From assembly GCA_944325195.1 (NCBI GenBank), contig CALUZB010000021.1:1-64000 (forward strand): a stretch of DNA of 64,000 nt, written 5' to 3'. The notes under the pieces are model-generated. The model had not been told where the DNA came from, did not search any database, and saw only the letters and a program-made list of their open reading frames with translations. How positions within the stretch are numbered: the stretch's first letter is position 1; every line of letters starts with the position of its first letter. This DNA is from an uncultured Desulfovibrionaceae bacterium. GTDB taxonomy: Bacteria; Desulfobacterota; Desulfovibrionia; Desulfovibrionales; Desulfovibrionaceae. A program made the translations under genes and the position numbers. This document shows, piece after piece, positions 19,796 through 39,607 of the stretch.

Positions 19796-19896
19796 CACTA
19801 ACGCCAGCGGATATTTCCAGTCTTAAACAATAAAAGCCTTGCTGAAGGGAACACATACCTTAAACAGTTAAATTGCGTAAAAGAAAAGGAGCAAAG

Positions 19897-20797: not shown

Positions 20798-20961
20798 CCG
20801 GTTTACTTTACTAAATAATAAAAACATACGTTTAAAATGCTTGTAGCCACTATAAGAATGTTTAGTGGCACAGATTGAAAAACGTACGTTATTAAGGGCG
20901 ACATCGTTTCCCGGCTGAACAAATTGAAATATCCAAAATTAGTACTCTAAAAAGCTAAAAA

Positions 20962-22248: not shown

Positions 22249-22377
22249 GCTCCGGCGGGCGACAGTCCGCCCGGAAAAGGGCCTGAACGAGGCGTCCCCT
22301 GCTTTTTAAGAATGAGATTTATCAGACAAAAAATCATCAAGCATGGGCTGCTGTAAATGCGTATACCGGAGAAAGTG

Positions 22378-23502
22378 ATGGAATTCAGAGATTTAAAAAC
22401 ACAATACCAAAACCTGAAAGATGAGATTGATGCCGGAATTGCTGAGGTAATTCGCTCTGCCGATTTTATTTCCGGTAAAAAAGTCAGAGAACTGGAAACG
22501 GAACTTGCCGCAGCGGTGGGCAGAAAGTTCTGTATAAGCTGCGCCAATGGCACAGACGCGCTTGAGCTGGTTCTACGCGTCTGGGGTATCGGGAAAGGGG
22601 ACGCCGTCTTTGTGCCCTCGTTTACTTTTATGTCCACAGCGGAAGTGGTCAGCCTGCTTGAGGCCAGGCCGTTTTTTGTGGATATTAATCTGAAAACTTT
22701 CAACATTGACCCAAACTGTCTGAAAAAAGCGATCGCGGAAGTCCAGGCTGAGGGGAAATACACCCCGAAGGCGATCATTCCGGTGGATTTGTTCGGGCAA
22801 CCTGCTGATTTTGACGCGATTCTCCCAATTGCAGCTGAACATGAGTTGAAAATTCTGGAAGACGCCGCCCAGGGGTTCGGCGGTTTAATTCGCGAACAGG
22901 CGGCCTGTTCTTTCGGAGATGCCTCCATAACCTCATTTTTCCCGGCAAAACCACTTGGCTGTTATGGGGACGGCGGCGCGATCTTTACCGATAATGAAGA
23001 AGAAATGCGGCTGCTCCGCTCTCTCTGCGTACACGGTAAGGGCCGGGAAAAGTACGAGAATATCCGGATCGGGCGCAATTCGCGTCTGGACAGCATTCAG
23101 GCCGCTGTTTTACTGCCCAAGCTGCGCGCGTTTTTTCAGTATGAGCTCGACGCCGTGAATCATGTTGCTGAACTCTACACCAGCCAGTTGAAGGACGTGG
23201 TGCGTACTCCGTCGGTTCAGAAAAGTTACCGCTCCAGTTGGGCCCAATATACGATTCTGTGTAACGACCGGGGCCAGCGTGACAATTTACAAAAAAAACT
23301 GAAGGGAGACGGCATCCCCAGCGTGGTTTACTATCCGTGCGGCCTGCATCACCAAAGGGCATTCGCTTATTGCGGCTATGGGGAAAACAGCCTTCCTGCA
23401 ACTGAAGCCGCGTGTGAACGAGTGCTCAGTCTACCGATACATCCCTATCTGACTGATGATGAAGTCTGCTCTATTGCCGCCAAAATTAAGGGATATTTAT
23501 AA
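22378..23502 (+). CDS. wbpE: PLP-dependent sugar aminotransferase (WbpE type, DegT/DnrJ/EryC1/StrS)
   Basis: This is predicted to transaminate UDP-3-keto-GlcNAcA at C3, using glutamate, in tandem with the WbpB-type oxidoreductase. DegT/DnrJ family features are clear: the N-terminal MEFRDLKTQYQNLKDEIDAG, the cofactor region CANGTDALELVLR, EDAAQGFGG, and the Schiff-base Lys at residue 191 in FFPAKPLGCYGDGGA. The frame could start at 22357, but the ATG at 22378 has GGAG six bases upstream and gives 374 aa with the family N-terminus. A short GC-rich hairpin (GGGCG/CGCCC near 22257-22272) lies in the 129-nt gap before it. The next gene follows after 11 nt. Confidence 0.93.
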   Translation: MEFRDLKTQYQNLKDEIDAGIAEVIRSADFISGKKVRELETELAAAVGRKFCISCANGTDALELVLRVWGIGKGDAVFVPSFTFMSTAEVVSLLEARPFFVDINLKTFNIDPNCLKKAIAEVQAEGKYTPKAIIPVDLFGQPADFDAILPIAAEHELKILEDAAQGFGGLIREQAACSFGDASITSFFPAKPLGCYGDGGAIFTDNEEEMRLLRSLCVHGKGREKYENIRIGRNSRLDSIQAAVLLPKLRAFFQYELDAVNHVAELYTSQLKDVVRTPSVQKSYRSSWAQYTILCNDRGQRDNLQKKLKGDGIPSVVYYPCGLHHQRAFAYCGYGENSLPATEAACERVLSLPIHPYLTDDEVCSIAAKIKGYL

Positions 23503-23513
23503 AGGAGGCAGAA

Positions 23514-24469
23514 ATGAAAAAAGTTGCACTGGTTGGATGCGGCAGAATTTCCAAACGCCATATTGAAGCGATTCGTGATACTGACGGCCTGGAGATTGCT
23601 TATGTCTGCGACAAAAATGCGGAAATGGCAAAAGCGACTGCCGAAGAACTCGGCGTACCGTATGTTACCGACTATCGGGAGCTGAACGGCAAGGGGCTGG
23701 ATATTGTCAGCGTTCTGACCCCATCCGGCCTGCACCCCCGCCACGTCTCCAATATCGCAGAGCTGACAGATATCCCCTATATTGTTTGTGAAAAGCCGAT
23801 TTCCTTAACCTTACGCGAAGCGTTCGAGGTATACCGTCGGGTGGAGAAAGCCGGGAAAACGCTTTTACCGGTATTCCAGAACCGCTACAACCCCCTGGTC
23901 AGACTGATCAAAGAGCTGCTTGACAGCGGCCGGCTCGGCAAAATCCATCAATTTATCTGTAACGTCCTCTGGAATCGTAACGATGAATATTTCGCGATTG
24001 ACTGGCACGGTACCCCGGAATTTGACGGTGGAGTTCTCTATACCCAGGCCAGCCATTATGTCGATATGCTCCACTATTTCTTTGGTGAGGTGGAATCATA
24101 CAAAGGGCTTGGCTCTGACTTACGGGGCTTTGACGTGTATGACAGCATATCTGCGGTGTTGCGCTTCAAGTCAGGGACTATCGGGAGCATCAACGCCACA
24201 GTTGACGTTTATCAGACAAACTTCCTGACCGAATTTACGCTGATTGCCCAAAATGGAACAATCCGCCTCTCCGGTACGAACCTGAACCAGATTGACTTCT
24301 GGAATGTGGAAGGCATGGAAAAGCCGGATCTGAATATCAAGCTCGATCACCAGTACGGCAAAGGCCATAACACTATGTATGAATACATCGCAAAAAACAG
24401 TTCAATATGTTCCCAAGCAAGGCGGACGTAATTTCCGGCATCCGGCTGATGGAGAGGATTTCTTACTGA
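23514..24469 (+). CDS. wbpB: UDP-GlcNAcA 3-dehydrogenase (WbpB type, Gfo/Idh/MocA) with a -1 frameshift near its end
   Basis: This Gfo/Idh/MocA oxidoreductase is predicted to oxidise C3 of UDP-GlcNAcA before transamination by the WbpE-type partner, with 2-oxoglutarate recycling of NADH known for WbpB. The Rossmann start is VALVGCGRISKRHIEAI, the EKP motif is CEKPISLT, and YTQASHYVDMLHYFFG lies in the catalytic domain. In the zero frame it stops at 24431 after an unrelated tail. The -1 frame continues with QFNMFPSKADVISGIRLMER, the expected family C-terminus, and ends in a TGA at 24467-24469 that overlaps the wbpI ATG by one base. The switch occurs at GC-A-AAA-AAC (24389-24397), a classic slippery heptamer. 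AAGGAGG precedes the start. Confidence 0.88.
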
Positions 24470-25548
24470 TGAAGAAGATTGTAACCGTTATCGGAGCGCG
24501 CCCGCAATTTATCAAGGCGGCGGTCCTTTCCCGGATTCTTCAGGGACGGTTTCAGGAAATCCTGCTCCATACGGGTCAGCACTTTGACTCCGACATGTCT
24601 GAGATCTTTTTTACGGAACTGAATATCCCCGCCCCCAAATATAATCTCGGCATTTCCGGCGGTTCCCATGCGGAAATGACCGGGGCCATGCTGGTTGGCA
24701 TTGAAAAGGTCTTACTGGAAGAAAAGCCGGATGCCCTGCTGCTTTATGGGGATACCAACTCCACTCTGGCCGGGGCGCTGGCCGCAGTCAAACTGCATAT
24801 TCCGGTTATCCATGTGGAAGCAGGCAACCGGCTTGGCGCCATGAGTAACCCGGAGGAAGTGAACCGGATTACGGCGGATCATCTTTCCACATTACTTTTT
24901 TGCGCTTCAAAATCCGCCCTTGAATTTCTGAAGCGGGAAAATCTGGGAGAACGCGCCTGTTTTGTCGGCAATGTGATGTATGACGCCTTTCTACATTTTT
25001 CCTCAAATTCCAGGCAGGCGTTAAGCGAGCTCAGGGGGTATGACAATGCCCTGATCCGGGTTCCTGAAAAATATTGTTATATGACCTGCCACCGGGCGGA
25101 AAATACGGCTGAAGACTCAACCCTGCTGGAAATTTTCCGGGCTGTTGACTCACTTGATTATCCCACAATCTACCCCGTACACCCCCGCAATCGGGAACGG
25201 GCCCAACGCCTGCACCGGGAATATGGTTTTAAGCGGATTTTATTGCTTCCTCCGGTAGGATATCTCGATTCCATCACCCTGACTAAACATGCCGCCTGTG
25301 TGGTGACGGATTCCGGCGGCCTGCAATGCGAAGCGTTTTACGCGGGCGTGCAGTGCGTTACAGTATTTGAGCATGTGGTCTGGCCGGAAACTCTGGTTGA
25401 CAACCGGAACCAGATGTGTGCGCCCCGCGCTGCTGAAATATTGCAAAAACTCTCCGCCAAACAGGTGATTGATCCAAATTATCAGCCTTTTGGAGACGGA
25501 CACGCCTGCGAAAAAATTGTGGATAGGCTGGAACGCTGGTTTGGCTAG
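24469..25548 (+). CDS. wbpI: UDP-GlcNAc3NAcA 2-epimerase (WbpI type, non-hydrolysing)
   Basis: This enzyme of the WecB fold converts UDP-2,3-diacetamido-2,3-dideoxyglucuronate to the mannuronate isomer, the last step of the nucleotide-sugar route. The N-terminus KKIVTVIGARPQFIKAAVLS is diagnostic; further family motifs are LLHTGQHFDSDMS, HVEAGNRLG, and the nucleotide-binding VTDSGGLQCEAFYAG. The frame opens at 24379, but only the ATG at 24469 gives the family N-terminus, and it overlaps the shifted wbpB stop (TGATG), so the two are translationally coupled. That leaves 359 aa, the normal length. Assignment to WbpI rather than WecB rests on the neighbouring genes. Confidence 0.92.
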   Translation: MKKIVTVIGARPQFIKAAVLSRILQGRFQEILLHTGQHFDSDMSEIFFTELNIPAPKYNLGISGGSHAEMTGAMLVGIEKVLLEEKPDALLLYGDTNSTLAGALAAVKLHIPVIHVEAGNRLGAMSNPEEVNRITADHLSTLLFCASKSALEFLKRENLGERACFVGNVMYDAFLHFSSNSRQALSELRGYDNALIRVPEKYCYMTCHRAENTAEDSTLLEIFRAVDSLDYPTIYPVHPRNRERAQRLHREYGFKRILLLPPVGYLDSITLTKHAACVVTDSGGLQCEAFYAGVQCVTVFEHVVWPETLVDNRNQMCAPRAAEILQKLSAKQVIDPNYQPFGDGHACEKIVDRLERWFG

Positions 25549-25707
25549 AGCGATCTTCCCATACGGAGAACGCTTAAACCGGTACGGTTCAAGCCTGAAA
25601 CGCTCTGCGCACATTTTCATAAAAGTAGCGCCGGGTAATTGTCACAAGACAAACTGTGCCATTAAGCGATAATTTCAAACATAAAATGCGCTGACGGAAG
25701 GGATAAG

Positions 25708-26817
25708 TTGAAGATTGTATTTTTATCAAATCATGCCTGGGGAACGCCGAATAAGGCGGGCTTTCACCAGCTTGCCTACGCGTTCTGGAAAATGGGTAAC
25801 GAGGTAACCTTCATTACTACCGGATTATCTTTATTTTCCGTTCTGCGTAAAGATGCCCGTCTGAAAACCGGGCGGCCCTTGCGCAAATTGTGGGAAGAGG
25901 GACCGGGGCTGTATTCTTTTCTGCATTTTACCCTTTTGCACCCCCATACCCTGATTATTCCTGTTCTGGATCGTCTGTCCGGGGGTATGGTAAGAAAATA
26001 CGCTGATTGTTCTTTGGGTCAGGCGGAGGCAAAGCTTAAGGAAGCGGAGCTGATTGTGTATGAAAGTTGCTCCGCAGTCTGTCTTTTACCCCGGATGAGG
26101 CAGATTGCCCCCCAGGCAAAACACATCTATCGCGCTTCAGATATTCTTTCCGCCATGCGTTCTCTGCATCCTGAAGTTAAACAGATTGAGCGGGAAATTA
26201 TCCCTCTTTTTGATCTGATCAGTGTGCCGAAAGAATCCATGATGAAATGCTTTGCCGGGCATCCCCGCGTCTTTACCCATGCCCACGGCATTGATACCGC
26301 CGCCTATGATGCCCAGACAGTTAACCCCTATCCGCCGGAGCCGGGGCGCAAACATTGTGTTTTTGTCGGCATGTCCCATCTTGATTACGAATTTCTGCAA
26401 ACAGCGGCCCGGGCCTTTCCGGAAGTTCTGTTTCATATAATCGGACCGCTTGCTCAAAACGCTCTCGGGGAAAATATCATTTATTATGGGCGCATGGAGT
26501 ATCACGACACACTGAAATATATCAAGTTTGCGGATGTGGGTCTGTATACCCGCATGGCCGATCCGGACCTGCTCAGTACCCTGGGCTGTTCACTGAAAAT
26601 GCAGCAATACCGCTACTGTCAGTTGCCTGTGGTTGTGTCGGATAAAATCGACACCCCGCCCCCTGATGATCAGTTTTTCCGCTATCAGTACGGCAACCCG
26701 GAGAGCATGAAGAGGGCATTGCAGGACGCCCTTGCGGCTAACCATAATCCCGCCTGGAAAGACGGGTGTCATGACTGGCAGAAAACAGCTTCCGCCATTC
26801 TGGATGATCTGCAATGA
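25708..26817 (+). CDS. Glycosyltransferase resembling GumK (GT70)
   Basis: The 369-aa protein resembles GumK, the xanthan glucuronosyltransferase of Xanthomonas, in size and pattern: a GT-B fold starting MKIVFLSNHAWGTPNKAGFH, a central IYRASDILSAMRSLHPEV, HAHGIDTAAYD at the domain junction, and a donor-site segment KMQQYRYCQLPVVVSDK. It would be membrane-associated on the cytoplasmic side and add one sugar, perhaps glucuronic acid or a diacetamido uronic acid, to a lipid-linked glycan. The start is a TTG with GGAAGGG upstream. A 159-nt gap separates it from wbpI; its stop overlaps the next start (ATGA). Confidence 0.75.
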   Translation: MKIVFLSNHAWGTPNKAGFHQLAYAFWKMGNEVTFITTGLSLFSVLRKDARLKTGRPLRKLWEEGPGLYSFLHFTLLHPHTLIIPVLDRLSGGMVRKYADCSLGQAEAKLKEAELIVYESCSAVCLLPRMRQIAPQAKHIYRASDILSAMRSLHPEVKQIEREIIPLFDLISVPKESMMKCFAGHPRVFTHAHGIDTAAYDAQTVNPYPPEPGRKHCVFVGMSHLDYEFLQTAARAFPEVLFHIIGPLAQNALGENIIYYGRMEYHDTLKYIKFADVGLYTRMADPDLLSTLGCSLKMQQYRYCQLPVVVSDKIDTPPPDDQFFRYQYGNPESMKRALQDALAANHNPAWKDGCHDWQKTASAILDDLQ

Positions 26818-28022
26818 ATATCCTGCATCTGTCCAGACATGGGGAGATGGACCGCCGCATCAGCGGTGAAATGAATTACCTCGCCCGGCAAGGACATCAG
26901 GTCTTTTTCCTTTCCACCCCGGTCAGCTTGGAAGGGGCGGGACTTAAACCGGAAATCCGTTGCCTGATGGAATATGCCCCCCGGCAACCTGGGCCCCCAG
27001 CGCAGGGTAGAAGTCTGAATGCCCGGATTCGCCGGGCTGTACTCACTCTGCCCGTCTCTCTGGCCTTGCCCTGCTATGCCTTTTTGATCGGACTTATGGA
27101 TCGCAGGCTTTATGCCCGGCTGGAGGCGCTGCGCAAAAGCGGAATGCCTGGAATAACGCCGGATTTTATTCATATTCATGACCTGCGTCTGGCGGAATAC
27201 GCCCTTTTTCTGAAACAGCGTTTCCCGGCGGTGAAGCTGATCTATGACTCTCACGAGCTAACCCCATTTCAGAACTCCAACCTGAAAGTCAGTCGCTATA
27301 TTCTGGAGAGAGAGCGATGGATTATCCACAGCATGGACGCCGTGATTACGGTGAATCAATCCATTGCCGGGCGGATGCGGGAACTGTATGGGCTGAACAG
27401 GGTCCATGTGCTTTACAACAGTGCCGAGCCGATCGCGGAGGAAGGCGGTCAGAAGATACAGGACTTATTTCATTGTCCAGAACTGCCCGCAAATACGGTT
27501 AAGGTGTTGTTTCAGGGCTCGCTTACGGAGAACCGCAATCTGGAAAATCTGGTACGGGCTTTCTCCCTGCTTCCAAAACAGTTTCACCTGTTCATTCTGG
27601 GTAACGGCCCGCTGAAAAAGGAACTACGAGCACTTGCGGGGAGCAATGTGCATTTCGCGGACAGCGTGAAGCAAGCGGCATTACTGCCCATGACCAGACA
27701 GGCGGACTTCGGAATCATTCCCTACCTGGGTGATGCCTGCGAAAACAACTGCCTCTGCACGCCGAACAAATTTTTTGAGTTTCTGGAAGCAAGGCTGCCG
27801 ATCTGTTCTTCCCGGCTGCTTGAGCTGAACCGGATTCTGGAGCTTTATCAGAACGGGGCCTGTTTTACCATGCGTTCGCCGGAGGAAATCGCCGTGGCCA
27901 TAATGGAAATGCAGAAACGCATTGAGCGGGGAGAATTCACCAAAAGCGCTCTGGAGGCCGCCGCCCGGGATTATTCCTTTGAGCGTCAGATCCGGGTTCT
28001 GGACGAGGTATATCAGATCTGA
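26814..28022 (+). CDS. GT4-family glycosyltransferase
   Basis: This 402-aa retaining glycosyltransferase (GT-B fold) is predicted to extend the surface glycan in the cytoplasm. Seen motifs: the N-terminal MNILHLSRHGEMDRRISGEM, the acceptor-domain IYDSHELTPFQNSN, KVLFQGSLTENRNLENLV at the start of the donor domain, and the nucleotide-sugar site GIIPYLGD...CTPNKFFEFLEAR. It resembles the GT half of the fusion protein at 30.6-33.2 kb, suggesting duplication. It overlaps its upstream neighbour by ATGA and its stop overlaps the wzm start by one base, so translation is coupled. The sugar transferred is unknown. Confidence 0.87.
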   Translation: MNILHLSRHGEMDRRISGEMNYLARQGHQVFFLSTPVSLEGAGLKPEIRCLMEYAPRQPGPPAQGRSLNARIRRAVLTLPVSLALPCYAFLIGLMDRRLYARLEALRKSGMPGITPDFIHIHDLRLAEYALFLKQRFPAVKLIYDSHELTPFQNSNLKVSRYILERERWIIHSMDAVITVNQSIAGRMRELYGLNRVHVLYNSAEPIAEEGGQKIQDLFHCPELPANTVKVLFQGSLTENRNLENLVRAFSLLPKQFHLFILGNGPLKKELRALAGSNVHFADSVKQAALLPMTRQADFGIIPYLGDACENNCLCTPNKFFEFLEARLPICSSRLLELNRILELYQNGACFTMRSPEEIAVAIMEMQKRIERGEFTKSALEAAARDYSFERQIRVLDEVYQI

Positions 28023-28816
28023 TGAAATTCTTTACCGAACCCTTTTCTTTATTCTGGCGTTATCGCTACCTGCTGCGCCGCACAACGGTTTCAGATATTA
28101 AAGGCCGTTATGCCGGCACTTGCATGGGTATGGCCTGGCTGACCGTTTATCCACTCCTCTTCCTGGCCCTCTACGCGGTAGTGTATGTGGCCATTTTCAA
28201 GGTGCGTTTTAATGAGCTGCATTCCTTTGACTATGTGCTGCTGATCTTTGCCGGCTTGATTCCCTTCCTGAACTTCACTGACACGCTGGGCCAGGGCGTA
28301 ACTTCCGTCATCGCCAACAGCACCCTGATCAAGAATACCCTCTTCCCGGTTGAGCTGATTCCAGTTAAAGCGGTGCTTTCCTCTCTCCCGACTCTGCTGA
28401 TCAGCCTGTTTCTCCTCGAGGGGGCGCTACTATATACCGGTCAGGCTTCCATGTTTAATTTCCTGGTTCTACCGCTGATCCTGCTCCAGATTTTTTTCTG
28501 CTTCGGACTTATCTGGCTGCTTTCCGCGCTCAATGTATTTATTAAGGATATCGGGCAGATCATCCCGGTAATTTCCCTGTTTCTGATGTTGATCTCTCCC
28601 ATTGCTTACACCGTTGATATGGTTCCCCCGGATCTGATGCCCTTCATGTATTTCAACCCGCTGTTTTATCTGATCTCCCTTTATCGGGTTGTGCTTCTGG
28701 GCGGAGTTTTCCCCTGGCAGGAATTCTGGATCTTTCTCGGTATAACCATTGGACTGTTTTACCTTGGCTTTTTTGTCTTTAAGAGCCTGAAAGGACTGTT
28801 TTCCGATGAATGCTGA
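28022..28816 (+). CDS. wzm: Polysaccharide ABC exporter permease (Wzm)
   Basis: Wzm is the inner-membrane channel that, with the Wzt ATPase, exports a finished lipid-linked O-antigen or capsule chain to the periplasm. The 264-aa product has six hydrophobic helices and the family start RRTTVSDIKGRYAGTCMGMAW, an amphipathic interface helix, and LKNTLFPVELIPV-like sequence (IKNTLFPVELIPVKAVLSSL). It overlaps the preceding glycosyltransferase gene by one base and the following wzt by 11. Absence of wzx and wzy in the locus fits an ABC-dependent pathway. Confidence 0.93.
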   Translation: MKFFTEPFSLFWRYRYLLRRTTVSDIKGRYAGTCMGMAWLTVYPLLFLALYAVVYVAIFKVRFNELHSFDYVLLIFAGLIPFLNFTDTLGQGVTSVIANSTLIKNTLFPVELIPVKAVLSSLPTLLISLFLLEGALLYTGQASMFNFLVLPLILLQIFFCFGLIWLLSALNVFIKDIGQIIPVISLFLMLISPIAYTVDMVPPDLMPFMYFNPLFYLISLYRVVLLGGVFPWQEFWIFLGITIGLFYLGFFVFKSLKGLFSDEC

Positions 28817-30593
28817 CTCTGCTTCCATTGCTGTACAGACTTCCAACCTGGGAAAAATGTATAAGCTCTATAATTCCCGGCGGGAAAAAATTCTGGACTC
28901 CCTGGGCCTGAACCGGCTCTGTTTCTGGCAAAAAAAGCAGTATCAGGAATTCTGGGCCCTGCGGGGAATTAACCTGAGCATACGGAAAGGAGAACGTGTC
29001 GGGATTATCGGCCATAATGGCGCGGGCAAAAGTACCTTGCTGAAAACGCTGATCGGCTCCCAGCTCCCGACAGAAGGAACCATGCGGCTTGATGGTCGGA
29101 TTCAGGCGTTAATGCAGCTTGGCATCGGCTTTCACCCCGATTTTTCCGGACGTGAAAATATCCGCGCCTCGCTTGGTTATAATAATCTATCCACCCGGGA
29201 AATCGCCGTCTGTGAAGAAGAAATCATTGATTTTACTGAACTGGAAGATTTTATCGATCAGCCGGTCAAAAATTATTCAGCAGGCATGTATGCCCGTCTG
29301 GCCTTTGCCACCGCTACGGCCATTAAGCCGGAAATCCTGATTATCGATGAGGTGCTGGGGGCGGGAGACGCTTACTTCGCGGGAAAATGCGTTGAGCGGA
29401 TGAAACATCTGTCCATTGAAAGCGGGGCCACTGTGCTTTTTGTCAGTCACGATCTGGCCAGTGTTCAGAATATGTGTGAACGCTGTATCTGGATAGACCG
29501 CGGCTTGCTGCGCGCCGACGGCCCAGCCCTGGACGTGATTAAAGCCTATTCTGCCCATGTGCGGGAACGGGAAGAACTGCGCCTGAAAATCCGTAATGAA
29601 AAGAGACTGGAAACCCGCAAATCCGTTGATGTGGATTATTCCGTTTGCTGGAACTTCCGACTCAGCGTTGCAGAGGGGGCGGCAATCAGCTTTCCGATGC
29701 GGAAACTTTCCTTCTATTATCGGGGGGACCTATTAGCCGAACTATCTCCGGGGATGCCGCAGGACCTCGACTCTTCTCAGGCAGCCTTCCTTTACCTGAA
29801 TAAAAACAGCAAAGGCTGGAGCGCTATTCTGGGCGACGGTCCCGCGAGCTGGCATCGCCGCGTTGATTTGTCCGCAAGCCGAAACGCGATGGGGGCGTTT
29901 ATCGTCCAAGCTGATTACAGGCCTGAGGAACTTTCCGTAAGCCTGGAATATCTGGATACAGCTGTTGGGGAAGCCTTGTTTGAATATTACAACCCGACTG
30001 AAGACTGCTATCACCTCGCGCATACGCTGAAACTTTCCGGAAGCGAGCAGATGGTCAGAGCAACTTTTACTTTAAAAGCAAAGGAAACAGAGCAAGCTGG
30101 TCAGTCAAAAGCCCCTGTTTCCCAAAAAGCGGACGATGAATACGGAAGTGGGGAATGCCGCATTAAAAAGGTGCGTTTCCATTCCGGCGGCAAAGATGTT
30201 TTCACCCTTGAGATGAAGTCCGCTGTAGAGATCATTTTTGAATATGAGACGCGGGTTCAGCTTACAAACCCGATCTTCGTGTTCGCGGCCTATTTGCCCT
30301 CCGGGCAGGTCGCCATGCAAATCTGGCGGGAACTTAAAGAGCTGAACGGAACAGGGCTTCTGGAAGCAGGAAGGGGGAGTTTTCATTTTAAACTTGCCCC
30401 CCTGCGGCTTGGGGCCGGCTATTATATCGCTTCAGCGGCAATTTTTAAACGCTATCCGAAAAATGGCGTTGAGCCGGAGGCATACCATCTGCTTGATCGC
30501 AAAATTGAGTTTCAGGTTATATCCCAAGAAAAAGAACCGATTTTTTCCGGAGTTTGCGTTCAGGAACATACCGACGCGCTGATCCCTTTGTAA
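28806..30593 (+). CDS. wzt: Polysaccharide ABC exporter ATPase with extended C-terminus (Wzt)
   Basis: Wzt powers export through Wzm and, by its C-terminal domain, may recognise the finished polymer end. Walker A GHNGAGKST is at residues 69-77, the signature is NYSAGMYARLAFA, Walker B is ILIIDEVLG and the switch His is in FVSHDL. At 595 aa it is some 150 longer than common Wzt proteins. The normal Ig-like carbohydrate-binding domain appears to be the last 150 residues (IKKVRFHSGGKDVFTLEMKS to AAIFKRYP). The additional beta-rich stretch at about 265-430 (ISFPMRKLSFYYRGDLLAEL, SLEYLDTAVGEALFEYYNPT) lies between it and the ATPase. This suggests a second sugar-recognition module. Confidence 0.93.
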   Translation: MNADSASIAVQTSNLGKMYKLYNSRREKILDSLGLNRLCFWQKKQYQEFWALRGINLSIRKGERVGIIGHNGAGKSTLLKTLIGSQLPTEGTMRLDGRIQALMQLGIGFHPDFSGRENIRASLGYNNLSTREIAVCEEEIIDFTELEDFIDQPVKNYSAGMYARLAFATATAIKPEILIIDEVLGAGDAYFAGKCVERMKHLSIESGATVLFVSHDLASVQNMCERCIWIDRGLLRADGPALDVIKAYSAHVREREELRLKIRNEKRLETRKSVDVDYSVCWNFRLSVAEGAAISFPMRKLSFYYRGDLLAELSPGMPQDLDSSQAAFLYLNKNSKGWSAILGDGPASWHRRVDLSASRNAMGAFIVQADYRPEELSVSLEYLDTAVGEALFEYYNPTEDCYHLAHTLKLSGSEQMVRATFTLKAKETEQAGQSKAPVSQKADDEYGSGECRIKKVRFHSGGKDVFTLEMKSAVEIIFEYETRVQLTNPIFVFAAYLPSGQVAMQIWRELKELNGTGLLEAGRGSFHFKLAPLRLGAGYYIASAAIFKRYPKNGVEPEAYHLLDRKIEFQVISQEKEPIFSGVCVQEHTDALIPL

Positions 30594-30648
30594 AAGAACT
30601 TATCTCTCGCCACCGTTTATAAATTAACCCAAATCATACAGAGCAGAC

Positions 30649-33177
30649 ATGAACTATAAAGAAGGACAAAACTATTATAATCAGCCCGCGCTCTGGGCTG
30701 ATGTCGCTGAATATCAGAAAAATGTTCTGAACGACATCCTTCACTTTATTCCGGATGACGTAACGTCCATTCTGGATGTGGGTTGCGGCAACGGTTTTGT
30801 GATTAACGCCCTTGCCGGGAATTATGCCTGCGCCGGGGTGGATATCAGCCGCACGGCACTGGAGAGCGTGCGGGTTGAAAAGAAGTTGGGTACGGCGGAC
30901 GCGATCCCCTTCCCGGACGCGTCTTTTGACCTGCTGATGATTAATGACGTTCTGGAACACCTGCCGGATGCAACGCTGCGAAAGGCGCTCGCTGAGTTGC
31001 AGCGGGTATCCGGAAAATATATTCTGGTCACAGTTCCTTTTCTGGAAAACCTGCGGGCCGGGATGACCTGCTGTGCCCATTGCGGCACAGTTTACCACAT
31101 TACCCGGCATGTCCGCTCCTTTGGGGTAAAAGAGTTACTCGGTCTGTTCGGTGAGGCGCTTCCGCCGGAACGCCTGATCTATTCCGGGTCTGAGCATGAC
31201 ATTCGCGATCTTTATCAATATGAAATCCGGGCTAAACTCCATCTGCACACGTCCTGGGATAAAGCCGCCTGCCCGGTCTGCGGGGAAAAGGCTTCTGTTA
31301 ACCCCTCCGCTACCCTCGACACAACCCCATATTATACGGGGATCGCGGAACTGGCAAAAGACCCGCTTTTTCTGCCGCCGCTGCGGAATGAGTGCATTGC
31401 CCTGTTCAGAAAGGAAGGACGCCCTGCCGATTTACCGGACAGCGCAATCACGCTCGTTGTTGATGGGCAGAAAACAAAGGCCCACTTCGCCCTGGAAAAC
31501 GGAAACAGCTTTCTCCTTACCGGAGCAAACGGGGAATATTGCTATCTGGAATTTACAGCCAATGGAGTAATCCATACTTACCCCCGCCCAACTCCCCTGC
31601 CTGGTCGCGGCTTCAGAATCCCGGCCTGGTTTAATAACGCCATCACGGGCTATGACTCCAAAGTGCTCCATGAAGCTATCCTGGATCAATATCTGCTGCT
31701 GCGTCATAGCCTGACAGAAACTGAAAATACCCGGATGCAGGGGAAGTTTTTAAATTTAACGGAAGAACTGCAAGAGCAGAAGGAATACCTTGCTCCGATT
31801 ATAAATAACTTTAAACGTTCCTGGCCCGGCTGGCGCAACGATATTGAAAATCTGGCCGCGCCCAATCTCAAAGGCCGACCGGCTGATGACGGGAAACCAC
31901 ATTTCCTGGTAATCACGCACGATCAAAAGCTGGACCGGCGCATTGTGCAGCAAGTCGAGACCCTGATCCGTGTCGGGTGGAGCGGGGTTGTTGTTGCCCT
32001 TTCTTTTGATTCAGAAGACCATCTGGAAGAAAAAACAGGCTATTTTATTCACAGAGTGGGCCAGAAACACATTGTTCCGGACTGCAGATGTTACTGGCTC
32101 TATCAGCGTGGGTTATATCTAAGCCGGCGCTGGTTTAAGTTCCTGCCGCAGTCAATTTCCGCTACACTGTGCAACCTGGCTTACCACGCGCTCTGCCGCC
32201 TGCATTATCGCTGCCCCAGCATCAAGTACCCTCTGCCCTTTAATCTGGCCTTTTTCTTAGCGGGCCGGAATTACCCGGCGGAGCTGATTATTGCGGAGGA
32301 TCTGCCGGCCCTGAAAGCCGCCGCTCTGTTAAAGCGGCAGTGGGGCTGCCGTCTGCTTTTTGATTCGCATGAGTTTTATCCGGAACAGCGTATTTTCAGC
32401 TCCACCCAGAAACGTATCATGCACCAGATCACCAGGAATTACATCCATGATTGCGATCAGGTCAGCACCGTCAGCCACGGCATTGCCGCCCTGTTTCAAC
32501 AATATTACGACATCAAAAAACCGATAGTGTTGCATAACGTAACCAAGGTGGAGAATATCGAGCGGGGACATAAATTCCACCAACTTCTGAATCTGGACGC
32601 CGGCCGGAAAGTAATCCTCTATCAGGGCGGTATTATCCCGGACCGTAATATTGAAAACCTGCTGGCCGGGTTTGTCAGACTCAACCCGGTAAACACGCAT
32701 CTGGTCTTTTTAGGCCCAACTGCCCCAAAGTTTCAGGAAGAACTTAAACAGATGGCCGGGGCCCTGCTCAACCGCAAAGTACATTTTCTGGAAGAGGTTC
32801 CGCAGGCGGAGCTGCTTGGCTATACAGCCTCCGCGGATTTCGGGGTGATCCCCTATCGGGTAATCGACCTGAACACTAAATTCTGTATGCCGAATAAATT
32901 CTTTGAATTTATTCAGGCCGGGCTGCCCATTCTCTCCAATGAGCTGATTGAGGTGGAAAAGATCCTCCGGCAAATCGGCGGGGGCGGAATGATCGCCAAT
33001 CTGAACTCACCGAAACAGGTAGCGGAGGCTCTGCGTAACATGCTGTCCAGAGATCTTGAACAGGATCACCGTATTCTCTGCCAGGCCAGAGCCCTGCTCA
33101 GTTGGGACCATGAAGCAAAACATTTTCTAGAGCTTATCCGGAAAATAACCCCCGAAAATAACTCTGATGGGAAATAG
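30649..33177 (+). CDS. Fusion of SAM-dependent methyltransferase and GT4 glycosyltransferase
   Basis: The 842-aa product joins two enzymes. Residues 1-200 are a class I methyltransferase with motif I ILDVGCGNGF and LLMINDVLEHLPDA, followed by Cys pairs (CCAHCGTVYH, CPVCGEK) that may bind zinc. Residues about 230-340 look beta-rich, 345-390 may be a coiled coil (MQGKFLNLTEELQEQKEYLA), and about 405-842 are a GT4 glycosyltransferase with FDSHEFYPEQ, ILYQGGIIPDRNIENLLAGF and the donor site CMPNKFFEFIQAG. Methylation together with transfer fits addition or capping of a methylated sugar, which in other ABC-dependent O-antigens sets chain length. The sugar and position are unknown. The next gene starts 3 nt later. 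Confidence 0.88.
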   Translation: MNYKEGQNYYNQPALWADVAEYQKNVLNDILHFIPDDVTSILDVGCGNGFVINALAGNYACAGVDISRTALESVRVEKKLGTADAIPFPDASFDLLMINDVLEHLPDATLRKALAELQRVSGKYILVTVPFLENLRAGMTCCAHCGTVYHITRHVRSFGVKELLGLFGEALPPERLIYSGSEHDIRDLYQYEIRAKLHLHTSWDKAACPVCGEKASVNPSATLDTTPYYTGIAELAKDPLFLPPLRNECIALFRKEGRPADLPDSAITLVVDGQKTKAHFALENGNSFLLTGANGEYCYLEFTANGVIHTYPRPTPLPGRGFRIPAWFNNAITGYDSKVLHEAILDQYLLLRHSLTETENTRMQGKFLNLTEELQEQKEYLAPIINNFKRSWPGWRNDIENLAAPNLKGRPADDGKPHFLVITHDQKLDRRIVQQVETLIRVGWSGVVVALSFDSEDHLEEKTGYFIHRVGQKHIVPDCRCYWLYQRGLYLSRRWFKFLPQSISATLCNLAYHALCRLHYRCPSIKYPLPFNLAFFLAGRNYPAELIIAEDLPALKAAALLKRQWGCRLLFDSHEFYPEQRIFSSTQKRIMHQITRNYIHDCDQVSTVSHGIAALFQQYYDIKKPIVLHNVTKVENIERGHKFHQLLNLDAGRKVILYQGGIIPDRNIENLLAGFVRLNPVNTHLVFLGPTAPKFQEELKQMAGALLNRKVHFLEEVPQAELLGYTASADFGVIPYRVIDLNTKFCMPNKFFEFIQAGLPILSNELIEVEKILRQIGGGGMIANLNSPKQVAEALRNMLSRDLEQDHRILCQARALLSWDHEAKHFLELIRKITPENNSDGK

Positions 33178-33180
33178 GTT

Positions 33181-36100
33181 ATGAGAATAAGAAATAAAGT
33201 TTTTCTGTATGTTGCCATGCTTTTTTTGTTTACCGCAAGCTCTGAACCGCTATTCGCGCTTCCAGCGCAAACTGACGTGCAGAACGCAATTCATCATGTT
33301 GATGAAAAAGGTATCCCCGTTATGGAAATCAAGAAAGTGGGAAAAACCTGTCACCCGGCAATGATCGCCATATATGCCCTGGCCTATGCCGGGACAGAGG
33401 ATTATTATAATTTAGAAATCAAACCGGACTCGGAAAAACTGCGTAATACCTGCGATTGGCTGACCACAATGCTCAAACCCGCTCCCGGTGGGTTCTCCGT
33501 CTGGTATTACAATTTTGATTCCACCTATAATGACGTTACAATCAAGGCGCCCTGGTTCAGCGCGTTCGGTCAGGCCGTGGGAATTGAAGCACTTTGCGCG
33601 GGCTATGAACAACTTAAGGAGCAAAAATATCTGGATGCCGCCAAACAGGCAGCGCAAGCCCTGCTGACTCCACTGGACAAAGGCGGCCTGCTCTTTACCC
33701 GTGACGGGCATTATTTCTTTGAGGAAATCCCGTCTTCAACGGAAAATCCTTCCCATATTCTGAACGGGCATATGCGGGCCATGCTCGCGCTGAATAAGCT
33801 GTACACTCTGACCAAAGAAGCCGCTTATCTGGAAGCGTTTCAGAGCGGCGCGGCCTCTCTGAAACGCCTGCTTCCTCTTTATGATACCGGCTATGCCCTG
33901 CGCTATGACCTGAACCCCAAAAAAGAAGAGCTGCTCTTCCGGTTTAATGACCCTTATAATCTGCTGCTTCCGCCCCTGCCCATTGCGGCTATCCGCCTTT
34001 ATGACCCGGAAAGCAAAAAGGAAGTGCGGCTGGATGTGGGAGCCGGACAGGACGCAACCGGAAAACTGCGCATTGCCGGTAACGACTGGGGGCAGGCTGT
34101 GGAAAAGGAAAAAAGCTTCCGTCCATTACTGGAACGGGAGAATCTGCCCAATCCCCTGACCGCCGCGGACTTCGGCATGGATGCGCCCGGCACCTACTTT
34201 TATCTGCATCTGCCTTCAGACTGGGCGGACAATACCCGCGCAACTCCTCTCGAACTGATCGTGGAATATCAGGATATCTGTCAGGGGAATATGGTGGTGG
34301 AAATGCGCTCCATGGCCCCCGGCCCGGCCTTCCGCCCATTGCGCGACGGTGACCTGCTCCTCACCGGCAACGGGGAATGGCGGGAATGGCGCGTTCCCCT
34401 GCGCCCCTCCGATCTCGGCTTCTGGTGCGGAGAACTTTACGCGGAAAAACACCTGCTTTATCTGGACGCTCTCAGCCTTCTTGAACCGGATTTCGCTCCT
34501 TGGGCCGAAAAAGCCCGCGGCTACTTCAACCTGGCCGCCAATCAGAAAACAGAGAACTATGTTACACCGCAAAAGCAGATATTGCCGACACAGACGCCTG
34601 TATTACCCTATCTTGATACAGATGATGCCGGAGTAATCATGCAAGGTTATCCGGACGAAAATTCACGTTTTATAAATGGATTGTGGGATCCGGATTCATC
34701 TAAGGGGGTTTTGCGCTACCAACCTTTTTTGATTGCGCAGCAGGCCCTTGGATATGATTTCGTAAAAATGTTGAACATGTATGTGAAGCCGGATGACGCC
34801 TATCCCTGGTTTCAGAAACACGCCGTTATAAAAAACGGGGCCGCGATCTGGAATTTTGAGTTCGATAATGCCTATAATGACATTGTCACAAAGGCCCCCT
34901 GGACCAGCTCCTTTTCCCATATTTATATTCTGAAAGCCTTAAAAAAAGCCCTGGATGAAAAGAAGAAACTTCCCGGCGTCAGCTTGCCAGAGCTTTATAA
35001 TCAGGCCCTGAACGCGCTCCAACTCCCCCTGGCGGAGGGCGGCTTTGTTTCCGGAAGTGGTTACGGCATCTTTCTGGAAGAAGTTCCCAATGCCACCCAT
35101 GTGCTGAACGCGCACCTGGCCACTGCGGCGGAACTGGCCAAACACCCGCAGGCCGAAGCGGTCCGCGCTGAAACGCTTAATACCTTGCGGAACACCCTTT
35201 TTCTGTTTGATGCCGGCTACTGGCTGCGCTATGACCAGAACCCGAAAAAGGAATTTCTGCTGCAAATCGACTGGCTTTCCGGCGAACGTTCGCCCCTGTT
35301 CGCCTCATTTACCCTTGAAGACCCGCAGCATGAGGCGGCGGTCAGACTTACGCCGGATAATGAGCTTGCGGAAAACGCCTGGGTCGGCATATCCGGCGCG
35401 GAATGGGAACTGGAGGGTGATTTCTGGGCCTTCAGCAACGGATACGCCAAGCATCCGAACCCTCTGCCCGGCGGCTCCCGGCATAATGCCTACCTTAAGC
35501 TTGCCCTGCCGGTCTGGGCCGTCTCTGAATGGTTTGATTTTCCCGAACTCGTGTTGCGCGTGCGCTACAAGGACGTGGCCGCGGGACGCTTTGCTCTCAA
35601 AACTCAAGCGATCCACAACGGTAATGAACTGCAGTTTATCCATTTACGCAACGGCGTTCTGGAGTGTGTGGGCGATGGACAGTGGAAAGAAGCCGCCTTC
35701 CGGGTTCGCCCTCAGGATCTGGGCTGGTTTGTGGGGCCGGATTATCAGAAATATGTGGTGGAGCAACTGGAAAGCCTGGGGCAGAACGATTGGTTTTTCC
35801 GCCAATATGCCCAGCGCCATAAATTCTTTCTGAACCGGCATCTCCTGAATACGGCGGCAAAGCCGGGAAATTTCCAGCCCGTGCCGCTTAAGAAGAGCCT
35901 GAACTCCGCAACCGAAGCCGCGCGAACGCCAATCACAGTTAAGGCCGTTGCTTCCGGTGAGACTTATCCCGGCTTTGGGGTGGAAAACGCCCTGGACGGC
36001 AATCCTGACAACGATTATACCGCATTTTATGAACAATCCCGGCAGTCGTTTACGGCAGAGCTGAACCCGGCGGTAAAAAATTTAGGGGGAACACTGACTT

Positions 36101-37647
36101 TTCTTGACGCCGCCAATTACGCTTCTGTATGGAAAGTGGAAGCCCTGAATGAGAATAAACAGGTTTGCGCCGCTTCTCAGCAAACAGCGGACGCCACCCG
36201 AAAACAGGAGTTCCTGCTCTTCTCCGAACAACCGATCAGATACCTGCGTTTCAGCTTTACCGAATTCGCAGGCCAGCAGCGTCTGCTTTTGCGGGAACTG
36301 CAGGTGTTCAGTCTGCCGGAAGACTGGGAAAAGAATACGCTGGAGCTGCTTTATTCCGTTGGGGCGGAGCTGAACTGTGAATATATACGGCTGGATTTTT
36401 CCAACTGCCCGTATATCCCGCAGACTATCCACGCCTGGTCCACAGACAGCGCGGGAAAACGCAAATATCAAGACATTTTCCGCCTTACCGCAAGCAGAGA
36501 AAGCAAGCTCATAATCCCGGTAGATAAAAGCTTTGCCTTTATCCGGCTGGACGCCTCTTCCTTTCGGAAGAATCCGCAAGCCCCTGATAGCCCGACAGTT
36601 TACCCGGAAATATCCTTCAACCTTGACGCAGCCCAATTGACCCGGTTTAAGGGCGACCGGCAACTTCAGGAAAAGGCGCTGCTCTCCGCCGCAGACCCGG
36701 CCAATCCCTTACGGATTATCCGCAGCCCGATTACGGAGTTTTGCCGGGAACTGGCTTCCCATTTATTGGGGGGAGAGAACCTGACTGACTTTGAAAAAAT
36801 CATGGTTTTCATGGAGCACATTACCGGTTTTAAAGTGGGCGTCCCATCTAGTGGAAGGCCTGACGCTGTGCTTCTGGAAAGAATCGGCTCCTGCGGCAGC
36901 TATTCCAATGCTCTGCTCGCTCTGACTACAACCTGCGGGCTTGAAGGGCGTCTCCTGTCCCTGGCAAACTATCCGGAAAATAGTGGGCATGCCGTAACCG
37001 AGATATTTGTTGACGGTAAATGGCGAGTCTTTGACCCGACCTATGGCCTTTATTTTAAAGACGCTGCAAGCGGAGAAATCATGTCCTTTGAGGAACTGCG
37101 CAACCCGGCCAATAAAGCGGTTCCGGTTTATCTGAACCAGGAGCGCTATGCGTTCAGCGGAGAACGAACAGGCTGGGGCACGCAGGCGGTGTACCTGCAT
37201 GCCAACCCGGCCGGGGTAATCGGCCCGGACAGACCGATGTTTTATCCCCTAAAATTTGACCTGAACGGACGCACCAGTCTGGAACCGCCGGATCTTGGCT
37301 GGCAGGGCTCCGCCTATATCGGAGCGGCAATGATCAACAATAACTGGGAATGGACTTTATCCGGTCTGATCCAAGGAAGGGAATATGAATTTATTCTGCT
37401 CCCTTCCTCAATCGGCGGGGACCTTGGCGCGGATGAATTTGAGTTTAAGTGTCGCATCCTTGAGGACGGGGAAAAGCAAGGAAAAAGCCTGGATTTTAAA
37501 GTAAACAGGGCAGAGCTGAATCCAATCAAGATCAGCTTTACGGCTTCCGCACCGGAAATGAGGTTGGAGTTTACCCACCCATACCGGGGGCCGGAGTTCC
37601 ATTATCTTACAATCAGACGGTTTGAGTTAAAGCAAATCAAAAGCTGA
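33181..37647 (+). CDS. Exported multidomain protein: two glucuronyl C5-epimerase-like units, discoidin-like and transglutaminase-like domains
   Basis: This 1488-aa protein begins with a signal peptide (1 to about 27), so it acts outside the cytoplasm. Two units follow, each an alpha-helical C5-epimerase-like domain plus a beta domain: unit 1 at about 55-430 (WFSAFGQAVGIEALCAGYEQ, FFEEIPSS, SHILNGHM, LPLYDTGYALRYDLNP) and unit 2 at about 515-890 (NFEFDNAYNDIV, FLEEVPNATHVLNAH, LFLFDAGYWLRYDQNP). These match the C-terminal domain of heparan-type D-glucuronyl C5-epimerases. Unit 1 keeps the active-site-like Tyr (234); unit 2 has Phe. The YHxxHI segment of animal enzymes was not found. Residues about 915-1046 look like an F5/8C (discoidin) domain, and about 1195-1295 a transglutaminase-like fold with Cys1238, His1270 and Asp1285. 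A beta-rich tail ends the protein. Confidence 0.8.
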   Translation: MRIRNKVFLYVAMLFLFTASSEPLFALPAQTDVQNAIHHVDEKGIPVMEIKKVGKTCHPAMIAIYALAYAGTEDYYNLEIKPDSEKLRNTCDWLTTMLKPAPGGFSVWYYNFDSTYNDVTIKAPWFSAFGQAVGIEALCAGYEQLKEQKYLDAAKQAAQALLTPLDKGGLLFTRDGHYFFEEIPSSTENPSHILNGHMRAMLALNKLYTLTKEAAYLEAFQSGAASLKRLLPLYDTGYALRYDLNPKKEELLFRFNDPYNLLLPPLPIAAIRLYDPESKKEVRLDVGAGQDATGKLRIAGNDWGQAVEKEKSFRPLLERENLPNPLTAADFGMDAPGTYFYLHLPSDWADNTRATPLELIVEYQDICQGNMVVEMRSMAPGPAFRPLRDGDLLLTGNGEWREWRVPLRPSDLGFWCGELYAEKHLLYLDALSLLEPDFAPWAEKARGYFNLAANQKTENYVTPQKQILPTQTPVLPYLDTDDAGVIMQGYPDENSRFINGLWDPDSSKGVLRYQPFLIAQQALGYDFVKMLNMYVKPDDAYPWFQKHAVIKNGAAIWNFEFDNAYNDIVTKAPWTSSFSHIYILKALKKALDEKKKLPGVSLPELYNQALNALQLPLAEGGFVSGSGYGIFLEEVPNATHVLNAHLATAAELAKHPQAEAVRAETLNTLRNTLFLFDAGYWLRYDQNPKKEFLLQIDWLSGERSPLFASFTLEDPQHEAAVRLTPDNELAENAWVGISGAEWELEGDFWAFSNGYAKHPNPLPGGSRHNAYLKLALPVWAVSEWFDFPELVLRVRYKDVAAGRFALKTQAIHNGNELQFIHLRNGVLECVGDGQWKEAAFRVRPQDLGWFVGPDYQKYVVEQLESLGQNDWFFRQYAQRHKFFLNRHLLNTAAKPGNFQPVPLKKSLNSATEAARTPITVKAVASGETYPGFGVENALDGNPDNDYTAFYEQSRQSFTAELNPAVKNLGGTLTFLDAANYASVWKVEALNENKQVCAASQQTADATRKQEFLLFSEQPIRYLRFSFTEFAGQQRLLLRELQVFSLPEDWEKNTLELLYSVGAELNCEYIRLDFSNCPYIPQTIHAWSTDSAGKRKYQDIFRLTASRESKLIIPVDKSFAFIRLDASSFRKNPQAPDSPTVYPEISFNLDAAQLTRFKGDRQLQEKALLSAADPANPLRIIRSPITEFCRELASHLLGGENLTDFEKIMVFMEHITGFKVGVPSSGRPDAVLLERIGSCGSYSNALLALTTTCGLEGRLLSLANYPENSGHAVTEIFVDGKWRVFDPTYGLYFKDAASGEIMSFEELRNPANKAVPVYLNQERYAFSGERTGWGTQAVYLHANPAGVIGPDRPMFYPLKFDLNGRTSLEPPDLGWQGSAYIGAAMINNNWEWTLSGLIQGREYEFILLPSSIGGDLGADEFEFKCRILEDGEKQGKSLDFKVNRAELNPIKISFTASAPEMRLEFTHPYRGPEFHYLTIRRFELKQIKS

Positions 37648-37672
37648 TTTGCTCTGAAATGGAGAAATAATC

Positions 37673-39607
37673 ATGTGCGGAATAACAGGACTTTTCAGAA
37701 TCGATAAGAACTTTTATCCCAACGCGAAACGGCATCTGGAGGTGATGAACCATTTGCAGAAGCACCGCGGCCCGGATGGAGAAGGGATCTGGGTCCACCC
37801 GCGAAGCTTTATTGGTTTCGGTCATGTCCGCTTAAGCATTATCGATCTGGGCACAGGGGCTCAGCCGATGCTGGCCCCAAATGGCGACTGCATCAGCTAT
37901 AACGGAGAAATATACAACTATCTTGAATTGCGGGAAGAGCTGCGTAATTTTTACCAGTTCCGGACCAGCAGTGATACAGAGGTAATCCTGGCCGCCTGGC
38001 AGAAATGGGGGCCAGACTGCGTGAAGCATCTGCGCGGTATGTTTGCCTTTGCCATCTGGAATGAGGCGGAAGGTACGCTGTTCTGCGCCCGGGATCGTTT
38101 CGGAATCAAGCCGCTTTATTACACACGGCAAAACGGAGTGTTCTATTTTGCTTCCGAGGCAAAAGCCCTGCTCCCTTTTCTGCCGGACATCAGCATGAAT
38201 GAGGATGCCTTCCAGAGTTATCTGACCTTTCAGCTCTCGCTGGACGAAACAACCCTGTTTAAGGGAATCGAAAAACTGCTTCCCGGACACTGCCTTGAGT
38301 TTTGCCGCGATGGTTCATATAAAATCAGTAAATACTGGGAAGTTTACTATAATCTGGACTGGGACCACAGCGAGCACTATTTTATTGAACGCTGCAAGGC
38401 CCTGCTCGAGGATTCCGTGCGTCTACACCTGAGGGCTGATGTTCCGGTGGGGGCCTATGTATCCGGCGGCCTTGACTCAGGCATTATCAGTGCTCTGGCC
38501 ACCAGACATACCGGGGGCGGGAGCAGCGGGGAAAACGGCGGGTTTAAGACATTTATCGGTAAGTTTACCTGTTGCGATGGCTTTGATGAAAGCATGTACG
38601 CCCGTGATCTGGCCCAAAAATATGGTATGGCGCTTTATGAAGAAGATATCACCTGTCAGGACTTCATCAATGATATTCGGAAAGTGATTTATCATCTGGA
38701 TGAACCAGTGGCCGGGCCGGGTTCCTTTCCGCAATACTGCGTATCGCGGATGGCGGCCAGACACCGGAAAGTAGTGCTTGGCGGGCAGGGGGGCGATGAA
38801 ATTTTCGGGGGATACACCCGCTATTTGCTGGCCTATTTCGAGCAATGCATTAAGGGTGCCATTGAGGGCACCTTGAACAACGGTAACTTCATTGTCACCT
38901 ATGAATCGATTATTCCTAATCTGCGCAACCTGCACAATTATAAACCGCTGATGCAAAGCTTTTGGAAAGAAGGATTGTTTGACGACATTTCTTCCCGCTA
39001 TTTCCGCCTGATCAACCGCGCCCCGAATCTGGAAGCGGAAATTAATATAGAGGCTGTCAGCTCTAAACGCGATATTCAGGCGATTTTCAATAATATATTT
39101 CTGGGCGACAATGTCGGGCACACCGCCTATTTTGACCTGATGACCCACTTTGACTTCAAAACCCTGCTACCGGCCCTGCTTCAAGTGGAAGACCGGATGA
39201 GCATGGCCCACGGGCTGGAATCACGGGTTCCGTTTCTAGATCATCCCTTAATTGAATTTATGGCCACAATTCCGCCGAATGTAAAATTCAAAAATGGCGA
39301 ACTGAAACGGATGCTCCTGAAAAGCTTCGGGGACATTCTGCCGGCAAGCATTACCGCGCGCAAAGATAAAATGGGCTTTCCTGTACCGCTTAATCAGTGG
39401 ATGAAAACCGATTTGCGGGAATTTGTCCTGGATATTTTTCTCACTCAGGAAAAAATAGGCCGCCCTTATTTCAATACCCAAAAGATCATTGAGGCCATTG
39501 AAAAGGAAGGAAAGTTCAGCCGCAAGGTCTGGGGGCTGCTGTCTTTGGAGCTCTGGCATCAGGAGTTTATTGATAAAGCGGGAAGCTATCGCAAGATGGC
39601 ATGTTAG
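37673..39607 (+). CDS. AsnB-type glutamine amidotransferase, probably glycan-modifying
   Basis: By sequence this is a class II glutamine-hydrolysing asparagine synthase. The N-terminal nucleophile is Cys2 (MCGITGLFRI), with the glutaminase motifs HRGPDGEG and YNGEIYNYLELREEL; the synthetase domain has the ATP pyrophosphatase loop VSGGLDSGIISAL and LEDRMSMAHGLESRVPFLDH-like sequence near the end. The length of 644 aa is typical. As the last gene of a uronic-acid polysaccharide locus it more likely amidates a sugar carboxylate, as proposed for Bordetella WbmE and Pseudomonas WbpS, than makes asparagine. GGAG precedes the ATG, 25 nt after the epimerase-like gene. True asparagine synthase activity cannot be excluded. 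Confidence 0.9.
   Translation: MCGITGLFRIDKNFYPNAKRHLEVMNHLQKHRGPDGEGIWVHPRSFIGFGHVRLSIIDLGTGAQPMLAPNGDCISYNGEIYNYLELREELRNFYQFRTSSDTEVILAAWQKWGPDCVKHLRGMFAFAIWNEAEGTLFCARDRFGIKPLYYTRQNGVFYFASEAKALLPFLPDISMNEDAFQSYLTFQLSLDETTLFKGIEKLLPGHCLEFCRDGSYKISKYWEVYYNLDWDHSEHYFIERCKALLEDSVRLHLRADVPVGAYVSGGLDSGIISALATRHTGGGSSGENGGFKTFIGKFTCCDGFDESMYARDLAQKYGMALYEEDITCQDFINDIRKVIYHLDEPVAGPGSFPQYCVSRMAARHRKVVLGGQGGDEIFGGYTRYLLAYFEQCIKGAIEGTLNNGNFIVTYESIIPNLRNLHNYKPLMQSFWKEGLFDDISSRYFRLINRAPNLEAEINIEAVSSKRDIQAIFNNIFLGDNVGHTAYFDLMTHFDFKTLLPALLQVEDRMSMAHGLESRVPFLDHPLIEFMATIPPNVKFKNGELKRMLLKSFGDILPASITARKDKMGFPVPLNQWMKTDLREFVLDIFLTQEKIGRPYFNTQKIIEAIEKEGKFSRKVWGLLSLELWHQEFIDKAGSYRKMAC

Follow-up and report, generated by a model that had tools for sequence, protein, structure and literature searches.

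A predicted exported double C5-epimerase with CBM32-like and transglutaminase-like modules, encoded in a recurring bacterial polysaccharide export cluster

The window analysed here is the whole 64,000-nucleotide stretch at the start of contig CALUZB010000021.1, from an uncultured Desulfovibrionaceae bacterium, and all coordinates are window positions unless a relative is named. The genes from 19873 to 39607 are organized head to tail, with overlaps or gaps of fewer than 60 bases for most, and the double C5-epimerase gene lies between the last two genes of this list:

19873..20547, + strand, WbpD/WlbB-like 3-N-acetyltransferase (3mqg, E 2.3e-62)
20962..22248, + strand, TviB/WbpA-like UDP-GlcNAc 6-dehydrogenase (NF011729, 592.2 bits, barely above the cut-off of 592)
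22357..23502, + strand, WbpE-like aminotransferase (WbpE 3nyu, E 2.5e-97)
23514..24431, + strand, Gfo/Idh/MocA dehydrogenase, candidate WbpB/WlbA (3e-50)
24379..25548, + strand, WbpI-like UDP-GlcNAc3NAcA 2-epimerase (8sxv, E 4e-95, versus 2e-39 for WecB 1f6d)
25708..26817, + strand, GumK-like glycosyltransferase (Pfam)
26814..28022, + strand, GT4-type glycosyltransferase
28022..28816, + strand, Wzm-like ABC permease
28806..30593, + strand, Wzt-like ATPase with a Wzt_C polysaccharide-binding domain
30649..33177, + strand, methyltransferase-glycosyltransferase fusion
37673..39607, + strand, AsnB/WbpS-like amidotransferase

All five of the WbpA, B, D, E and I-type steps are encoded in the window, with the WbpB gene being a candidate whose PDB matches are unnamed oxidoreductase entries; five Wbp-type enzymes make UDP-ManNAc3NAcA (PMC10622841). 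The set for ABC-dependent polysaccharide export is also present, consisting of the Wzm permease and a Wzt protein with the C-terminal binding domain. For the ABC-dependent O-antigen of E. coli O9a, a kinase-methyltransferase, WbdD, is reported to modify the chain end and so set its length (PMC3482155), and by analogy the methyltransferase of the cluster may have the same role. Elsewhere in the window, a 2927-aa ORF (50391-59174) combines a GH94 domain with glycosyltransferase-like and glycoamylase-like ones and looks like a cyclic beta-1,2-glucan synthase of the NdvB type, and a 349-aa ORF (14643-15692) has no Pfam match, with conjugal transfer protein TraM as a weak NCBIfam match below threshold.

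The double epimerase gene itself has an ATG start and no internal stops, and its predicted features are as follows:

33181..37647, + strand, whole gene: exported double C5-epimerase with C-terminal CBM32-like and transglutaminase-like modules, 1488 aa
33181..33258, + strand, N-terminus resembling a signal peptide, residues 1-26 (assigned by eye)
33301..34536, + strand, epimerase unit 1, residues 41-452
33724..33726, + strand, Glu182, equivalent to GLCE Glu499
33763..33765, + strand, Asn195, equivalent to GLCE Asn510
33904..33906, + strand, Tyr242, equivalent to GLCE Tyr560
33922..34425, + strand, beta-rich insert of unit 1, residues ~248-415, lying after RYDLNPKKE and before the final helices of the barrel
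34438..34452, + strand, Y420-A-E-K-H424, displaced YHxxH segment; Tyr420 equivalent to GLCE Tyr578
34615..35838, + strand, epimerase unit 2, residues 479-886, with Glu634, Asn643, Tyr684 and Tyr855 kept
35248..35730, + strand, beta-rich insert of unit 2, residues ~690-850, homologous to the unit 1 insert
35932..36318, + strand, discoidin/CBM32-like domain, residues 918-1046
36382..36570, + strand, extra beta segment between the CBM32-like and transglutaminase-like domains, low confidence
36628..37062, + strand, transglutaminase-like (TGc) core, residues ~1150-1294, with Cys1238, His1270 and Asp1285
37345..37641, + strand, C-terminal beta domain, residues 1389-1487, which follows the TGc core and is conserved alongside it in relatives

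The residue equivalents are drawn from alignment and conservation, with the predicted model also used for the displaced segment. The initial annotation had proposed export from a signal peptide and two tandem C5-epimerase-like units, and both proposals are borne out; the motifs it quoted and the residues Cys1238, His1270 and Asp1285 are all in place. Lipoprotein-type N-termini are found in several relatives. Pfam C5-epim_C (PF06662, cut-off 23.3 bits) matches the 1488-aa protein in two stretches at E 1.7e-42 and 145.5 bits, and scores above its cut-off in each unit separately (109.2 and 46.5 bits). An AF2 model of the two-unit region, built from ten sequences, covers 883 residues with a pLDDT of 82.9 and a pTM of 0.80; its first eight Foldseek matches are chains of the animal heparan sulfate D-glucuronyl C5-epimerase, GLCE (PF06662; 6hzz, 4pw2), and VIA-align superposes it on human GLCE 6hzz with Z 28.0 over 245 residues at 2.5 A, such that the anticipated alpha/alpha-barrel fold is indeed predicted. 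The best unrelated fold gives Z 17.2. Model residues 7-424 cover residues 185-611 of GLCE 6i02, so the displaced helices occupy the place of the last ones of GLCE, and from these aligned ranges we infer that the catalytic residues would cluster in space.

Each unit carries one of the beta-rich inserts, about 165 residues long, which pushes the last catalytic segment downstream and, with no matches among Pfam and PDB sequences, is an unclassified domain. The catalytic residues listed for human GLCE are E499, Y500, N510, Y560 and Y578 (PMC13308652). Residues were mapped with an HMM profile built from 10 two-unit proteins, which matches human GLCE 6hzz at E 1.3e-17 and, in unit 1, places E499 at E182, Y500 at I183, N510 at N195 and Y560 at Y242. 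In the same profile alignment the unit 2 segment DYQKYEVEQL (Y855) aligns with DYHTTHINQL, the Tyr578 segment of GLCE, in a second stretch that is weak alone, and Y420 of unit 1 is mapped to Y578 by homology with Y855. The Y578-equivalent segments (Y420-AEKH424 in unit 1, Y855-QKYV in unit 2) lie about 170 residues further downstream than usual, and in two relatives the displaced segment gives a match of its own to Pfam profile positions 149-187 (E 2e-4 and 5e-4). Unit 2 of one relative (L042) reads YHKYH at this segment, the same as ordinary enzymes. The YHxxHI segment, which the initial annotation reported as absent from both units, is displaced by the inserted beta domain and retained in both, and its loss is ruled out.

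The equivalents of Glu499, Asn510, Tyr560 and Tyr578 are kept in all 13 known copies of unit 2 and in 12 of 13 copies of unit 1, that is, in 25 of 26 units. The exception is unit 1 of L031 (8332-11604), where all four are lost jointly (E to S, N to R, Y to A, Y to E) and unit 2 is intact; this joint loss supports the residue mapping. The Tyr560 equivalent lies within an RYD motif in both units (Y242 and Y684). Both units keep equivalents of four of the five catalytic residues of GLCE, which argues against the suggestions that one unit catalyses and the other binds, or that the whole is a glycan-binding protein without catalysis, and a dead unit 2 is ruled out because its residues are the more constrained. 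The Tyr/Phe difference once read as an active-site distinction between the units (LPLYDTG in unit 1, LFLFDAG in unit 2) is at a position outside the GLCE catalytic list, where Y and F vary among relatives. As aligned, the active site differs from that of GLCE at Tyr500, which is replaced by Ile183 in unit 1 and Val635 in unit 2. Two single-domain C5-epimerases from the window's own family (L020, L021) have Ala at this position (EEAP) and retain YHQVH, showing that Tyr500 is not invariant in the wider family.

Downstream of the units, F5_F8_type_C (PF00754) matches residues 923-1038 at E 0.007 and 16.9 bits, under its cut-off of 28.2, and the discoidin jelly-roll is predicted with Z 15.8 to the CBM32 domain 4lqr over 136 residues at 2.6 A; the F5/8C-like domain of the initial annotation is therefore sub-threshold in Pfam and stands as a discoidin/CBM32 assignment made from the predicted fold, which is clear. 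The extra beta segment that follows is not seen in the relatives aligned. Transglut_core (PF01841) matches residues 1221-1286 at E 3.1e-6 and 27.9 bits (cut-off 23), and 3isr matches at E 3.5e-5. Its Cys, His and Asp are kept in all 8 sequences aligned, and the proposed transglutaminase-like core with its triad thus holds. The C-terminal model (pLDDT 77.9) includes the discoidin/CBM32 fold as well as a TGc core whose Cys begins a helix and whose His and Asp are on adjacent strands; this core is similar to 3isr and 3kd4.

Nine further two-unit proteins were found in a scan of 84,980 species genomes, in Lutispora, a Bacillota MAG, Allopusillimonas, Hyphomicrobium zavarzinii, the Rickettsia endosymbiont of Bradysia, Fournierella, Pseudomonas, Thauera and a gammaproteobacterium; a tenth match (L032) is a single-domain enzyme and was set aside. 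Searches around four hosts, with 0 or 1 others in each set of ~195-200 genomes, added three more, giving 12 other genomes in at least two phyla; the 13 two-unit proteins are a lower bound, as the search patterns were narrow. None of 287 other genomes of the window's own family encodes a two-unit protein, and there are no relatives in the plasmids scanned or in the viral contigs scanned with the single protein and the unit pair. Mean likeness is 48% among unit 1 copies, 44% among unit 2 copies and 31% between units 1 and 2, indicating that the duplication predates the spread. In the tree, the window's protein forms a pair with that of the Rickettsia symbiont (96/93), near Bacillota, and this position and the patchy spread fit horizontal transfer and suggest that the cluster is mobile.

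The domain order of the window, with units followed by CBM32 and TGc, is shared by four relatives, those of Pseudomonas and Thauera and of a neighbour genome for each; in the remaining relatives TGc is encoded by its own gene downstream, sits at the N-terminus (L042) or is missing (L027). The literature searched for the double-epimerase/CBM32/TGc architecture yielded nothing, in agreement with the initial annotation, which knew of no such enzyme, but the protein is not a singleton. One relative (L025) has two ORFs in place of one, with a 7-base overlap following an A7 run, and the second lacks its own signal peptide; either gene fission or a sequencing indel could account for the split. In Lutispora (L023, 13147-16305) a gene directly downstream of the double epimerase encodes a TGc domain, an NHL propeller and a third C5-epim domain, and the genome recorded as that of a Rickettsia endosymbiont of Bradysia coprophila (L027) has the whole ABC-exported polysaccharide cluster without TGc.

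Wzm, Wzt, methyltransferase, glycosyltransferase, WbpI-like 2-epimerase and AsnB genes are present in all 13 neighbourhoods (the Wzm match of L027 is weak, at 48 bits), TGc and WbpE-like genes each in 12, and the full Wbp set in seven, some neighbourhoods being truncated by the end of a contig or of the region retrieved. Around seven ordinary single-domain C5-epimerase loci there is no Wzm, Wzt or TGc gene, in regions of 8-24 kb as against 38-61 kb for the two-unit loci, the core from Wzm to AsnB being about 12 kb. An AsnB-like gene is near five of seven ordinary bacterial C5-epimerase loci (L063-L073), a pairing wider than the double-epimerase cluster. The intact units and the conserved cluster in 12 other genomes rule out an ORF artefact, and the architecture and its cluster are real, recurring and apparently undescribed.

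From the homology, fold, catalytic-residue retention and cluster membership computed here we infer an activity, a substrate and a timing, and consider it somewhat probable that the protein is a tandem GLCE-type C5-epimerase acting at the polymer level on exported chains, most likely converting D-ManNAc3NAcA-type residues to L-gulo residues. The Wzm/Wzt transporter would first export the finished polysaccharide from the cytoplasm; each unit would then remove the proton from C5 of a uronic acid within the chain through one residue of the Glu499/Tyr578-equivalent pair, and the proton would be returned from the opposite face to give the L-sugar. The two units may act on two different residues of the repeat or processively, with the CBM32-like domain holding the glycan. 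Action outside the cytoplasm on finished chains is suggested by the ABC exporter and by the export signals on the double epimerases and most separate TGc proteins. The uronic acid pathway common to the clusters is that for ManNAc3NAcA, making D-ManNAc3NAcA to L-GulNAc3NAcA the first choice of conversion and GlcA to IdoA the second; given epimerase activity, the chances of the D-manno to L-gulo conversion are about even.

To our knowledge, every activity demonstrated for a GLCE-type enzyme is on GlcA/IdoA, so that epimerisation of a 2,3-diacetamido mannuronic residue would have no precedent. This precedent favours in-chain D-GlcA to L-IdoA conversion by the tandem enzyme, as in heparosan-type glycans, and the GumK-like glucuronosyltransferase of the window could possibly make such a substrate. 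We nonetheless regard it as unlikely, since a GumK gene is in none of the other clusters, the 6-dehydrogenase is of the TviB type for UDP-GlcNAc, all 13 clusters have the WbpI-like enzyme, and Tyr500 is replaced; one may speculate that Ile or Val there reflects the bulkier diacetamido sugar.

Within the preferred reading of polymer-level epimerisation, the transglutaminase-like domain would probably form or break an amide on the glycan, anchoring or crosslinking it, and such a step on a uronamide-bearing glycan would explain its constant company. The PF01841 superfamily includes proteases, and the closest solved sequences and folds (3isr, 3kd4) are annotated as putative cysteine proteases, so this module might instead mature cell-surface proteins and be joined to the epimerase only for co-location. 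That is possible but doubtful, as in 12 of 13 clusters TGc either is fused to the epimerase, at one end or the other, or has its gene beside it, and the Lutispora TGc is joined to a third C5-epim domain, which together point to a glycan role. That the units bind or cleave the glycan, as a lyase or chain-trimming enzyme, is improbable: epimerases and lyases are mechanistically akin in their common proton-abstraction step, Tyr500 is lost and one relative has a dead unit 1, but both acid/base residues and the Asn510 and Tyr560 equivalents are kept in nearly every unit, and we know of no lyase with a GLCE-type C5-epimerase domain.

The protein shares with animal GLCE, the enzyme that forms the iduronic acid of heparan sulfate, the barrel and four catalytic equivalents, and differs in its tandem units, the beta insert in each, the replaced Tyr500, the CBM32-like and TGc modules and the bacterial export cluster; a bacterial polymer-level C5-epimerase related to GLCE is also known. 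The alginate mannuronan C5-epimerases AlgG/AlgE have a beta-helix fold unrelated to the GLCE type; if the substrate proposed here is right, the D-manno to L-gulo conversion that they perform on an exported polymer would be common to both. For the Bordetella O-antigen, C5 (and C3) epimerisation of ManNAc3NAcA by WbmF/G/H is proposed (PMC2279256), although these are SDR enzymes at the UDP-sugar level. The Wbp/Vim system of Porphyromonas gingivalis uses Wbp enzymes and the WbpS amidotransferase to make a 2,3-diacylamino uronamide, with protein anchoring through a cysteine transpeptidase (PMC7468200); the window's cluster instead has a transglutaminase-like enzyme and an added C5-epimerase, and the genes annotated in it include neither PorU nor any for type IX secretion. 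As a long shot, a 2,3-diacetamido uronic polysaccharide, partly converted to uronamides by AsnB/WbpS, would be flipped from D-manno to L-gulo on the exported chain, and the exported transglutaminase would take the uronamide as its acyl donor, in the manner of glutamine, and thereby crosslink the glycan or attach it to protein or the cell wall. If true, this would be an alginate-like change by a heparan-type epimerase of unrelated fold.

The protein is of interest because its catalytic segment is displaced, its units stand in tandem and it is linked to a definite sugar pathway. A recurring and apparently transferred cluster, present in 13 genomes or more, with Lutispora, Thauera, Pseudomonas, Hyphomicrobium and Allopusillimonas among the named hosts, ties a GLCE-type enzyme to that pathway, an exporter, an amidotransferase and a transglutaminase. 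The cluster could supply enzymes for the production of L-uronic polymers, and its composition suggests that these bacteria make a surface polysaccharide, so far undescribed, in which acid sugars are flipped once the chain has been exported.
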